The notes under the pieces: model-generated | Told to the model about the DNA's origin: nothing | The model's input: the letters and a program-made list of their open reading frames with translations, nothing else | Databases searched by the model: none | Program-made: the position numbers and the translations under genes | Part shown: piece by piece, positions 6,814 through 63,333 of the stretch | Layout of the letters: every line of letters begins with the position of its first letter | Numbering within the stretch: position 1 is the stretch's first letter | Assembly (NCBI RefSeq): GCF_002216795.1 | Contig: NZ_CP022316.1 | Location: forward strand, 372,001-436,000 | Source of the DNA: Brachybacterium avium | GTDB taxonomy: Bacteria > Actinomycetota > Actinomycetes > Actinomycetales > Dermabacteraceae | Direction of reading: 5' to 3' | Length of the DNA stretch: 64,000 nucleotides

Positions 6814-9375
6814 ATGCCGATCCTGATGCCGTTCCTGCCCGAGCGCTCCGCCGATGCCGACGAGGACGCGATCGTCGAGGGCTTCGTCAAGGCTCAGGAG
6901 TCCGTCGGCCGCACCCTGTATCCGCATCAGGAGGAGGCGCTGCTGGCGATCGCGGCCGGTGACCACGTCATCGCCGCCACCCCTACCGGGTCCGGGAAGA
7001 CCACGATCGCGTACTCCGCGATCTTCGCCGCCATGGCCCGCGGGGAGCGTTCGTACTACACCGCCCCGATCAAGGCGCTGGTGAGCGAGAAGTTCTTCGA
7101 TCTGGTCGCCCACTTCGGGGCCGAGAACGTGGGCATGATGACCGGGGACTCGGCGGTCAACCACGACGCCCCGATCATCGTGTGCACCGCCGAGATCTTC
7201 GCCAATCACGCCCTGCGTGACGGCGCCGGCAGCGAGGTGGGCCTCGCGGTGATGGACGAATTCCACTACTACGGCGATCCGCAGCGCGGCTTGGCCTGGC
7301 AGGTCCCCCTGGTCGAGCTCCCCCAGTGCCAGTTCGTGCTGATGAGCGCCACCCTGGGCGATGTGACCCGCTTCGTCGAGGACCTCGCCGAGCGCACCGA
7401 GCGGGACGTGAGCGTGATCGACGACGCCCCGCGTCCGGTGCCGCTGGACTTCCGCTGGTCGCTGGATCCGCTGCCGGAGACGATCGAGACGATCCTCACC
7501 GATCGCGACGCGCCCGTCTACATCGTCCACTTCACCCAGAAGGACGCGCTCGAGCAGGCCCAGGCGCTGCAGGGCCAGAAGATCCTGGGCCCGGAGGAGA
7601 AGGTCCGGATCCGCGAGATCATCGGCGACTTCCGGTTCTCGAAGGGTTTCGGCCAGATCCTCTCCCGGCTGGTCCGCGAGGGCATCGGGGTCCATCACGC
7701 CGGGATGCTGCCGAAGTACCGGCGCCTGGTGGAGAAGCTCGCCCAGTCCGGGCTGTTGAAGATCATCTGCGGCACCGACACCCTCGGGGTGGGCATCAAC
7801 GTGCCGATCCGCACCGTGCTGCTGACGGGGCTGGCGAAGTTCGACGGCAAGCGGATGCGGCTGCTGAACGCGCGTGAGTTCCATCAGATCGCGGGCCGTG
7901 CGGGCCGCGCCGGCTTCGACACCATCGGCCACGTCGTGGTGCAGGCGCCGACGTGGACCATCGAGTTCGAGAAGGAGCGGGCCAAGTACCAGGCACGGGA
8001 GGAGTCCGGCAAAGTCTCCAACAATGCCAAGAAGCGCAAGAAGGAGCCCAAGCCACGGATCCCCGAGGGCGCGGTCTCCTGGTCCGAGGCGAACATGACC
8101 AAGCTGGTCCAGAACGCCCCGGAGCCGCTGCGCCCGCACCTGAAGATCACTGCGGGCATGGTGCTGTCCCTGATCTCCCGGCCGGGTGACGCGATCGCCT
8201 CGGGCCGCCACCTGATCATGACCAGCCATCAGACGACGGGTCAGAAGCTGGCACTGGTCAAGGATGCGGTGGAGATCTTCCGCGGGCTGCGGGACGCGGA
8301 GATCATCGAGGTGCTGGACGGCCCGGACCATCTCGGGCGGCGCTTCGCTCTGGTCGAGGATCTGCAGCTGGACTTCACCATGAACCAGCCGCTGGCGCCC
8401 TTCGCGATCGCGATGATCGACTCTCTCGATGAGGAGGCCGAGTCCCTCACCCTCGATACCGTCTCGATCCTCGAGGCGATCCTCGAGGACCCCCGGCAGA
8501 TCCTGCTCGCCCAGCAGAACTCCGCCAAGGGCGAGCTGCTGGCGGAGCTCAAGGCCGAGGGGGTCGAGTACACCGAGCGGATGGCGCGGCTGGACGAGGT
8601 GTCCTGGCCGAAACCGCTCGAGGAGGACCTCGAGGCGGCGCTCGAGATCTACGCGCGCTCCCGGCCATGGGTGCCGGCGGACGACCTCTCCCCCAAGTCC
8701 GTGGTCCGCGAGATCTACGAGACAGGGCAGACCTTCAGCGAGTTCGTGCAGCGCTACGGCCTGCAGCGGTCCGAGGGCATCGTGCTGCGCTATCTCTCCG
8801 ACGCCTATCAGGCGATGCGCCGCACCATCCCCCAGGAGCTGCGCACCGAAGGGCTCGAGGACATGATCGAGTGGCTCGGCGTGCTGGTGCGGGGCATCGA
8901 CTCCTCCCTGCTGGACGAGTGGGAAGCGCTGACCCATCCGGAGGACCTCGCGGAGGACGCCGCCTCCGAGATCCGGCCCAGCACTCCCCGCGGACTCTCG
9001 GCGCAGACGAAGGTGCTGCGCACGATGGTGCGCGCCGCCATGTGGCAGCGCATCGAGCTCTTCGCCTTCGAGCGGGAGGCGCGCCTGGCCGAGCTCGACG
9101 GCGCCTCCGGCTGGGACCGGCCGCGCTGGGCGGCGGCGATGGACGAGTACTACGACACCTACGACGACGTCGGCATCGACGGCGCCGCCCGCTCCCCGCA
9201 GCTGCTGCAGATCACCGAGGAGTCGAAGGTTTGGAGGATCCGCCAGGCATTCGCGGATCCCGATGGCAACCACGACTGGGCCATCGAGGCCGAGCTGGAC
9301 CTCGAGGCGACCGATGAGACCGGGGAGCCGGTGCTGACCATCACCCACGTCGGCACAGCGGAGAACCGGCCCTGA
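6814..9375 (+). CDS. DEAD/DEAH-box helicase, Ski2-like, with DUF3516
   Basis: An 853-residue superfamily 2 ATPase. The helicase core covers about residues 30-400: Walker A ATPTGSGKTT (55-64), DEFH Walker B (about 148), SATL motif III and the QIAGRAGRAG motif VI. The long C-terminal part matches the actinobacterial DUF3516 region. The core resembles Ski2/Mtr4-type RNA helicases, so an RNA-processing role is plausible but unproven. A lysine-rich insert follows motif VI (NAKKRKKEPKPR). The gene has its own -10 element and converges on the VQINPQ repeat gene with a terminator between them. Confidence 0.9.
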   Translation: MPILMPFLPERSADADEDAIVEGFVKAQESVGRTLYPHQEEALLAIAAGDHVIAATPTGSGKTTIAYSAIFAAMARGERSYYTAPIKALVSEKFFDLVAHFGAENVGMMTGDSAVNHDAPIIVCTAEIFANHALRDGAGSEVGLAVMDEFHYYGDPQRGLAWQVPLVELPQCQFVLMSATLGDVTRFVEDLAERTERDVSVIDDAPRPVPLDFRWSLDPLPETIETILTDRDAPVYIVHFTQKDALEQAQALQGQKILGPEEKVRIREIIGDFRFSKGFGQILSRLVREGIGVHHAGMLPKYRRLVEKLAQSGLLKIICGTDTLGVGINVPIRTVLLTGLAKFDGKRMRLLNAREFHQIAGRAGRAGFDTIGHVVVQAPTWTIEFEKERAKYQAREESGKVSNNAKKRKKEPKPRIPEGAVSWSEANMTKLVQNAPEPLRPHLKITAGMVLSLISRPGDAIASGRHLIMTSHQTTGQKLALVKDAVEIFRGLRDAEIIEVLDGPDHLGRRFALVEDLQLDFTMNQPLAPFAIAMIDSLDEEAESLTLDTVSILEAILEDPRQILLAQQNSAKGELLAELKAEGVEYTERMARLDEVSWPKPLEEDLEAALEIYARSRPWVPADDLSPKSVVREIYETGQTFSEFVQRYGLQRSEGIVLRYLSDAYQAMRRTIPQELRTEGLEDMIEWLGVLVRGIDSSLLDEWEALTHPEDLAEDAASEIRPSTPRGLSAQTKVLRTMVRAAMWQRIELFAFEREARLAELDGASGWDRPRWAAAMDEYYDTYDDVGIDGAARSPQLLQITEESKVWRIRQAFADPDGNHDWAIEAELDLEATDETGEPVLTITHVGTAENRP

Positions 9376-9383
9376 ACAGCACG

Positions 9384-9415
9384 ACAGGCCAGCACCCCGA
9401 GGGGCACCGGCCTGT
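9384..9415 (+). terminator. Terminator after DUF3516 helicase
   Basis: Inverted repeat ACAGGCC/GGCCTGT with a nested CCCC-GA-GGGG, 9 nt after the helicase stop. A second small hairpin (GCCGCA/TGCGGC, 9428-9442) lies on the side of the convergent gene. Either could act in both directions. Confidence 0.55.
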
Positions 9416-9453: not shown

Positions 9454-9768
9454 TCACTGGGGGTTGATCTGCACCTGCGGATTGATCTGGACCTGCGGCT
9501 TGTTCTGCGCCTGCGGATTGATCTGCACCTGCGGATTGATCTGCACCTGCGGATTGATCTGCACCTGCGGATTGATCTGCACCTGGGGGCTGATCTGCTC
9601 GAACTTCGTGGAGGAGACCTGCGGGTTGATCTGGACGGCGGAGGCGGCGCCCGCCCCGGCCACACCCAGTGCCACGCCGAGCGTCAGCCCACCGGCGAGT
9701 CGTGCTGCCCGCCCGGTCCAGCGGCGGGGGCGGGCGATCTCGCCCTGCACATCCTTGTCAGCAATCAC
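9454..9768 (-). CDS. Secreted hexapeptide-repeat protein (VQINPQ)10
   Basis: A 104-residue protein with no family I recognise. Residues 1-44 form a Sec signal peptide: basic start, hydrophobic core LAGGLTLGVALGVAGAG and cleavage site ASA. The remaining 60 residues are exactly ten hexads: VQINPQ, VSSTKF, EQISPQ, four VQINPQ, AQNKPQ and two VQINPQ. The DNA shows matching 18-bp tandem units (9457-9636), four of them identical. The mature protein is therefore all repeat, rich in Gln, Asn and Pro, with alternating hydrophobic and polar residues that suggest an extended or beta structure. The GTG at 9768 has GAGAGGA about 10 nt upstream. It is monocistronic. Confidence 0.75.
   Translation of the reverse strand: MIADKDVQGEIARPRRWTGRAARLAGGLTLGVALGVAGAGAASAVQINPQVSSTKFEQISPQVQINPQVQINPQVQINPQVQINPQAQNKPQVQINPQVQINPQ
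9457..9636 (-). repeat. 18-bp tandem repeat encoding hexapeptides
   Basis: Ten consecutive 18-bp units fill the mature part of the secreted protein. Units 4 to 7 from the C-terminal end are identical at the DNA level; the others differ at one to several positions. Unequal crossing-over could change copy number without breaking the frame. Confidence 0.85.
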
Positions 9769-9872
9769 AACGATCGTCCTCTCGAGAAAAGATGGGCGGC
9801 ACGGAAGTGAAGCCTGCCTCTTACCCTACAGTACCCTGCGTGAGATTCAGCACAAGCGCCCGTCGCCGATAT

Positions 9873-10141
9873 CTAACGCTCCACAGCTGCGGTGACGTGC
9901 TCCACGGCAGCGCACGCCTCCTCGAGACTCGCCCCCGGGCGACGGCTGCACCCACCAGGAAGGCGGAGATCGGGGCCATCGATCGTTGAACGCCTTCGGC
10001 GACCACCCCGGTCATCAGATGGACCCGATCCACGTCCAGGTCCACGCCCGCCACGTCGAGCTGCGCGGAGACCCGGTCCAGCCACGGCTGCAGCGTGGTC
10101 GTCCAATCGTCCTGGAGCGTCACCGGCGGCTTCGTCGCCAT
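9873..10141 (-). pseudogene. DUF6457 protein, frameshifted (nar operon)
   Basis: A small gene at the end of the nar operon, whose ATG overlaps the narI stop as TGATG. The first part reads as a DUF6457 domain (WLDRVSAQLDV, then RSMAPISAFLVGAAVARG). The proper C-terminus (ASLEEACAAVEHVTAAVER, stop at 9873) is in another frame. Adding one G to the run at 9932-9936 joins both halves into 89 residues. DUF6457 is often found with or fused to MobA-like molybdopterin nucleotidyltransferases, which suits a molybdenum-enzyme operon. Whether the shift is real or an assembly error cannot be told from the sequence alone; error is favoured because four other genes show the same defect. Confidence 0.7.
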
Positions 10142-59964: not shown

Positions 59965-60996
<1,032 letters not shown>

Positions 60997-63246: not shown

Positions 63247-63260
63247 GCGTCACTGAGCCG

Positions 63261-63333
63261 CCCCCGGGAGCGGCCGGGCCGCTCGCCCCCGGGAGCGGCC
63301 GGGCCGCTCGCCCCCGGGAGCGGCCGGGCCGCT
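63261..63333. repeat. Three 25-bp tandem repeats, possible terminator
   Basis: Units at 63261, 63286 and 63311 (the last one two bases short) contain CCCCCGGGAG then CGGCCGGGCC. Each unit holds an inverted repeat GCGGCC/GGCCGC. They lie between convergent nagA and the DUF2550 gene, so they may end transcription in both directions. Confidence 0.8.

Follow-up and report, generated by a model that had tools for sequence, protein, structure and literature searches.

What is the role of a small secreted protein that consists of little more than one hexapeptide repeated along the chain? The question is raised by an open reading frame (ORF) of Brachybacterium avium, found in the 64,000-nucleotide stretch analysed here (contig NZ_CP022316.1, positions 372,001 to 436,000; hereafter the window). 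Its parts are the following.

9454..9768, minus strand: candidate multi-copy hexapeptide precursor ORF, GTG start, 104 amino acids and a TGA stop; 18 further genomes of the genus have homologues.
9637..9768, minus strand: predicted Sec-type signal peptide, residues 1-44, ending in ASA before V (..GVAGAGAASA, then V); assigned by eye and kept in the alignment of precursors.
9457..9636, minus strand: mature chain of 60 residues, that is, ten in-register hexads, seven of them exact VQINPQ.
9601..9618, minus strand: non-copy spacer hexad VSSTKF; a six-residue spacer after unit 1 is seen again in many relatives.
9511..9582, minus strand: VQINPQ four times in perfect tandem.

Translation gives the order of the mature hexads as VQINPQ, VSSTKF, EQISPQ, four times VQINPQ, AQNKPQ and twice VQINPQ. 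An initial annotation had described a secreted protein with an AxA signal cleavage site and 60 mature residues in hexad register, mostly VQINPQ, and our reading agrees on both counts (the signal by eye, the unit in 7/10 hexads). Its statement that the protein is made only of ten hexapeptide units was slightly generous: all hexads are indeed in register, but two are degenerate and VSSTKF is an unrelated hexad rather than a copy. The same annotation knew no named family for the protein, and Pfam and NCBIfam likewise hold no model that matches it at cut-off, the best Pfam match being Hexapep, which scores 19 bits where 27 are required. At the DNA level the array has a period of 18 and 7.5 copies, and with a score of 221 it ranks first among the eight tandem arrays of the window (the runner-up scores 150). 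The seven exact units are written in four different DNA spellings, so a fresh DNA duplication does not by itself account for the array. None of the papers listed on pheromone precursors, tandem cores or repeats of Brachybacterium concerned this gene.

At the protein level 98 genomes were searched, the window's own included, and the repeat gene was found in 19 of the 38 Brachybacterium genomes among them. Homologues that do not keep the repeat as a unit would have spoken against the initial annotation; the opposite is seen in the 18 other genomes, where the hexapeptide is kept as a unit and its letters differ between species. All 19 copies are convergent to one and the same helicase gene, and in the window the two genes are separated by a hairpin.

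6814..9375, plus strand: DEAD helicase with DUF3516, convergent neighbour and landmark of all 19 copies (Pfam; synteny).
9385..9414, no strand assigned: strong hairpin in the gap where the helicase and repeat genes converge, a possible shared terminator with no T run.

On the other side of the repeat gene, nar genes are found in 13/19 regions, two of the 19 being short contigs. The neighbours in the window, identified with Pfam, are the helicase with DUF3516, a DUF6457 gene, narI and other nar (nitrate reductase) genes. The DUF6457-like gene, upstream of the repeat gene (9821-10141, minus strand), appears frameshifted, the C-terminal part known from its relatives (ASLEEACAAVE..) being in another frame.

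A tree of the helicase from 37 genomes unites the carriers in one clade (support 98/98), in which they account for 19 of the 22 members. The gene is absent from the other three, G021, G020 and G003, a pattern most simply read as one gain and three losses, and these three members imply that the gene is dispensable. The frame is intact in 18/19 copies; that of G022 looks broken by a frameshift, and this genome was for that reason excluded from the sets of 18 precursors used below, which include the window's own. In G022 (L043) the adjacent protease gene also looks frameshifted, and the coincidence suggests assembly errors or decay. Judged from its conservation and synteny, the window ORF is a real, inherited gene.

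When the 18 precursors were compared by tblastn with the helicase loci of 18 non-carriers (and with L073, a carrier's locus), the matches were confined to signal regions of proteases, apart from a single chance-like one in L068; a filtered listing of ORFs from the non-carrier loci, with a filter that could overlook a divergent gene, held no repeat gene either. Scanning the genome contigs with a pattern gave eight loci (five in Brachybacterium, one in an Actinomycetales metagenome-assembled genome and two unrelated), and since the pattern covers only two abutting units of narrow spelling, the scan is no proof of absence elsewhere. By eye, one of the two unrelated matches is a flagellar-switch-like protein (with MQMNPQ) and the other a TPR protein of Microcystis. 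An idealised tandem profile run class-wide (394 genomes) had three matches: one in the window's own genome, one to a subtilase (G215) and one in G532, where the matching frame may be antisense. In the genomes and at the thresholds searched, the repeat gene is found in one clade of one genus only. Several candidate homologues were rejected: that of G013, in the same genus (E 1.9e-5), has 25% identity and a different repeat, that on contig C26 of G018 is a weak match (E 1e-4), and that of G041, in the same family, is weak and has two internal stops. With the single window protein as query, G006, G022 and G033 also seemed to hold a second repeat gene, and in each this extra match (E 1.3e-5 to 1.4e-4) is the signal region of the neighbouring protease.

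Comparison of the 18 intact precursors shows what is constant in these proteins. The main spellings of the unit are VQINPQ, VEINPQ, VEVNPQ, VEVNPW, IEANPQ/IETNPQ, IETNPL and IQGNPQ. Within a genome the units are the same or nearly so (a single amino-acid spelling among motif-matching units in 10/18 precursors, two or three in 8/18) and between species they differ; the spelling changes largely as a set. Nearly every unit holds a proline. Copy number ranges from 3 to 13 and the mature chain from 28 to 85 residues. The first unit directly follows an AxA-type site (ASA, AAA or AGA) in 17/18 precursors, and the chain ends in a unit in 13/18. Many units abut, other spacers are of 1, 2, 4, 6 or 7 residues (the 12-residue spacer given for the window protein takes in a degenerate unit), and no single processing motif is common to the spacers. 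Because spacing is variable, the strict hexad register belongs to some species only, and from these alignments the constant feature is the unit, not the register.

We tentatively propose, at slightly less than even confidence, that the gene encodes a Sec-exported precursor carrying many copies of one short linear peptide. The protein would leave the cell through Sec and be cut, likely by signal peptidase, at the start of its first unit; extracellular proteases would then release hexapeptides (VQINPQ here) from the unfolded exported chain, or this chain would act as a multivalent linear ligand. The hexapeptide would be recognised by a partner, whether a receptor, an importer or a protease, and its spelling would be species-specific, as in peptide pheromones.

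The nearest parallel lies in the tandem Phr/RRNPPA propeptides of Bacillota. Passages of PMC11343458 describe extracellular proteases that release several pheromones from one tandem Phr chain, as well as a phage propeptide in which one hexapeptide occurs twice, unchanged, with a 4-residue spacer in between; up to six copies in tandem pheromone propeptides are given in passages of PMC9765709, and the two sources together put the maximum at 6 or 8. Like them, the window protein is a small Sec-exported precursor (its signal identified by eye and by alignment) and, compared with what these passages describe, it shares identical or near-identical short peptides, short variable spacers and a copy at the C-terminus. 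It differs from them in coming from Actinomycetota, in reaching up to 13 copies among its relatives and in lacking a pro-segment between the signal peptide and the first unit. Moreover, no TPR receptor adjoins the repeat gene, and RNPP_C (PF18768) was found in none of the 38 genomes of the genus, an absence of limited value because in the 14 controls this model gave matches in three and none over cut-off. We think that the window gene works in the manner of tandem Phr propeptides, but do not claim membership. No receptor or dedicated processing enzyme was found beside the gene, where the window has the helicase, DUF6457 and nitrate reductase genes. Neither did we notice a dedicated modifying enzyme, as encoded near multi-core RiPP precursors, among the window neighbours run against Pfam or in filtered ORF listings of the gap next to the repeat gene in 18 carriers, taken wider in five. 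If the hexapeptides were released and sensed, they would constitute a multi-copy linear-peptide signal outside Bacillota. To our knowledge, no such signal is known in this genus. A hexapeptide is simple to synthesise and add to cultures.

The main rival to a peptide precursor comes from a neighbouring gene. In 14/19 carriers the gene of a secreted S1-type protease lies no more than about 4 kb from the repeat gene, immediately upstream in nine (that of G022 in two frames) and across the helicase in five (that of G037 truncated). The protease of G023 is a relative of AL20 (PDB 3cp7, E 2.5e-63) and Anisep (PDB 3wy8, E 1.9e-68), for which a subgroup of their own is proposed in a passage of PMC6524800. 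The signal regions of these AL20/Anisep-type proteases resemble that of the precursor, which in contrast has no protease domain. Indeed, at E 1e-5 and in the genomes drawn from the genus, they were the only other matches of the precursor profile (E 2.8e-7 to 8.7e-6 in G018, G016, G011, G012 and G027). This resemblance implies that the repeat gene may have been born from the protease gene, probably by a partial duplication that took in its signal and pro-region, after which the unit expanded. Whatever its role, the repeat gene has the look of a young gene for a secreted protein that arose next to a protease gene and perhaps out of it.

The variable pro-region of the G028 protease holds an exact VEVNPQ, one of only two sites in the 19 genomes that code for VE[VI]NPQ outside the repeat gene; the other, in G018, is in a reading frame that may not be a gene. 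At the corresponding pro-region site we read VEVDPQ in G014, VAADPQ in G016 and AEASPQ in G018, and nothing similar in the other four near-type proteases aligned (an exact unit in one of eight, look-alikes in three). The unit could accordingly mimic the pro-region linker of the neighbouring protease, the repeat protein being a decoy or pseudo-propeptide that serves as a multi-site substrate or competitive inhibitor and shields the cell or tunes activation. We hold this to be unlikely, although it is a live rival. The presence of the protease near the gene in most carriers, the similar signal regions and the exact unit of G028 speak for it, as does the fact that the three clade members without the repeat gene are also without the protease (G003 being only 81% complete). 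However, at E 1e-10 no protease is found in 5/19 carriers, the window's genome among them, and 8/19 non-carriers have the protease without the repeat gene. Furthermore, the linker site is not conserved among the proteases, the AlphaFold model of the G028 protease is too poor (pLDDT 48.3) to position the linker, and local birth of the gene already accounts for the co-location.

A protease tree (16 of 22 sequences) separates the carriers' near-type proteases from their far-type ones. The carriers thus have two S1 protease groups on opposite sides of the same helicase (L042-L053 against L039, L048, L050 and L073), with one S1 protease per genome at E 1e-10 (that of G022 in two pieces). In the non-carriers G035, G025 and G029 the protease lies on the far side, yet groups with the near type.

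The second live rival is structural, and it bears on the fold of the chain. AlphaFold2, run on the 18-row alignment, yielded a model of low confidence (pLDDT 49.6, pTM 0.11) with the signal helix only and no strand; a model of this quality is compatible with assembly of the chain. The initial annotation had offered a surface fibre, an ice- or polymer-binding peptide or an amyloid-like element. A fibre, or an ice-binding or amyloid-like regular array, fits poorly with a spacing that varies, chains of 28-85 residues, the prolines and the absence of predicted strands. Together, free spacing, free copy number and the lack of a predicted fold argue against a solenoid, a fibre or an ice-binding face and in favour of a linear peptide. 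That related species retain the repeat under a changed spelling suggests that the hexapeptide itself, rather than a fibre, is the working unit.

The chain could still be a short unfolded spacer, or a matrix or wall peptide, extended or sticky by virtue of its proline-spaced repeats. Low complexity, richness in Gln, Asn and Pro, secretion as judged by eye, the lack of a predicted fold and the usually acidic character of the precursors are all consistent with this reading, which we nevertheless find rather doubtful: the chain is tiny, no anchor, sorting signal or second domain is seen in it, and near-identical units within each genome, spelled differently from species to species, exceed the needs of a spacer. 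Nor is charge preserved, since the window protein has a net charge of +1 against -10 to 0 in the other 17 precursors.

Returning to the precursor reading, the question is whether the peptide itself is maintained. The units of the 18 precursors differ from each other within proteins with a pooled pS of 0.336 and a pN of 0.017, a contrast biased towards low pN, as the units were chosen by motif. We also compared the mature chains of orthologue pairs position by position, without motif choice. Differences per sites were 9.0/26.8 synonymous and 2.0/99.2 non-synonymous for G014-G016, 8/22.7 and 2/85.3 for G024-G037, and 8/23.5 and 3/84.5 for G004-G037. For G024-G004 the contrast was weaker than in the other conserved pairs (11.3/38 and 15.7/142). 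The pair of the window lineage, G000-G024, is an exception to this conservation (7.2/37 and 31.8/143), its raised pN being due largely to the change from Glu to Gln across its units. pN was hence below pS in 4/5 pairs, and these counts indicate that selection acts on the hexapeptide at the protein level, the window lineage excepted.

The region upstream of the gene was also aligned across the 18 precursors, which have a promoter-like block in common. In the window it reads as follows.

9777..9783, minus strand: Shine-Dalgarno-like GAGAGGA, 8 nt upstream of the GTG start; relatives have GAGAGGA or GAAAGGT.
9828..9833, minus strand: putative -10 element TACTGT, from the alignment of 18 upstream regions.
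9850..9855, minus strand: putative -35 element TTGTGC, 16 bp before the -10 element, from the same alignment.
9839..9854, minus strand: CRP/GlxR-like palindrome TGTGCTGAATCTCACG, agreeing with TGTGA-N6-TCACA at 8/10 consensus positions.

TGTGA-N6-TCACA is the general consensus of CRP/GlxR-type regulators. A palindrome of this form with at least 8/10 positions precedes 12/18 precursors, starting 75-86 bp before the start codon and overlapping the presumed promoter; it is missing or weak in the other six (G036, G023, G015, G014, G016 and G018). Other gap lengths gave palindromes in 0-6 of the 18, and the palindrome of the window has a p of 0.03 in mononucleotide shuffles, which keep base composition only.

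These observations bear on the idea that the array is a minisatellite by-product, in which 18-bp slippage expands and homogenises a dispensable secreted frame and the peptide has no function. The tandem DNA array, the restriction of the gene to one clade with its absence from 3/22 members, and the fast change in the window lineage would all be expected of such a frame. We regard it as improbable, given the low pN relative to pS both within precursors and in most orthologue pairs, the conserved promoter-like block with its frequent palindrome, and a frame kept intact in all copies but that of G022.

Hexapeptide repeats of the bacterial transferase type (PF00132) have [LIV] at position 1 of their motif and form a left-handed beta-helix with regular coils of three hexads. 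That the window protein, which shares their six-residue period, should be such a beta-helix or another solenoid, as in ice-binding proteins, is very hard to credit and was dropped: in favour are the hexad register in the window species, the sub-threshold Hexapep match (E 0.0011) and weak NCBIfam matches to hexapeptide acyltransferases (E down to 2.7e-5, all far below cut-off), but the Pfam score of 19 bits stays below the cut-off of 27, spacers of 1, 2, 4 and 7 residues break the register in relatives, and AlphaFold2 predicts neither a strand nor a fold.

Work outward from the window gene further uncovered tandem peptide linkers, in subtilases from operons with the order ECF sigma factor, S8 and TPR-CHAT. 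When 396 genomes of the taxonomic order were searched with the alignment (E 1e-5), the tandem units turned up outside the genus only in subtilases, in two genomes of another family, and in a WYL-like protein. The latter (G238, L099 566-2158; identified by eye) has about ten VETNPE-like hexads in a linker and ends in another repeat, of pentads, (TTQPD)n. Relatives of the tandem-unit subtilase are present in at least 36 of 297 genomes of the order (E 1e-45), a lower bound because the window genome's own subtilase fell under this threshold. We read the subtilase linkers at 30 loci (L109-L138) and found at least three adjacent copies of a short peptide in 25, among them (IETNPF)4, (IETNPL)4, (TRTNPF)3, (MKTNPF)4, (FTQSHP)n, (YTQPFP)n, (YWDPVP)4 and (GGYWGGV)n. 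These peptides are tandem, species-specific, 6-8 residues long and placed ahead of the subtilase catalytic domain. The remaining linkers are an imperfect array in G263 and, in G310, G222, G105 and G058 (one genus), only two dispersed copies.

The operon was mapped in two genomes, G090 (L101, G090:C1:2293000-2307000) and G144 (L102), with protein families tested for G090, and in both its order is ECF sigma factor, small ORF, subtilase and TPR-CHAT. By gene order alone this matches the ECF54 context in the passages of PMC8999054 that describe it, and repeats are not mentioned in that description. Similarly, the literature matches listed, as far as their text goes, contain no description of tandem peptide linkers in subtilases of this context. 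The linkers are like the precursor in carrying species-specific peptides in tandem, and (IETNPL)4 even repeats the hexamer of G027 within the genus. In contrast to the precursor, they have the repeat inside the protein, as a linker leading up to the S8 catalytic domain, and the protease shows no obvious signal peptide. The window repeat gene has no S8 domain according to Pfam and hence stands outside the subtilase-linker class.

Standalone proteins with unrelated repeats were found as well, in two other actinobacteria, and offer a parallel to the precursor. G094 (L104 3766-4527) encodes one with a signal-like start and 27 units, (SYLPYK)n, and G079 (L142 5574-6509) one with a signal-like start and 17 units, (SWLPYK/E)n. 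Both genes are preceded by an ORF that by eye is methionine-aminopeptidase-like, and both lie directly before a TPR gene, in which a CHAT domain is shown for G079; the TPR gene of G094 runs off its contig. They resemble the precursor in the signal-like start and in tandem hexapeptides that differ between species, and differ from it in their unrelated unit, longer chain and direct pairing with a TPR gene; we claim no homology.

Taken with the precursor, these loci raise the possibility, an unlikely one in our view, of an undescribed actinobacterial class of multi-copy short-peptide messages, comprising standalone secreted precursors (of VQINPQ type in Brachybacterium and SYLPYK type elsewhere) and the linkers of subtilases in ECF sigma - S8 - TPR-CHAT operons, which in the manner of Rap-Phr would be read by TPR, TPR-CHAT or other peptide binders, with proteases and CHAT domains as partners.

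The window's own genome, alone of the 38 in the genus, has a TPR-CHAT relative (E 1e-5; L139 8062-13691, G000:C1:3308000-3326000), and the same locus holds an ECF-type sigma factor and a subtilase with GGMWAGV three times over in its linker. Within the window itself, two other repeats are a perfect (TCGGCG)9 array at 60086-60139 and three exact 25-bp repeats at 63259-63333.
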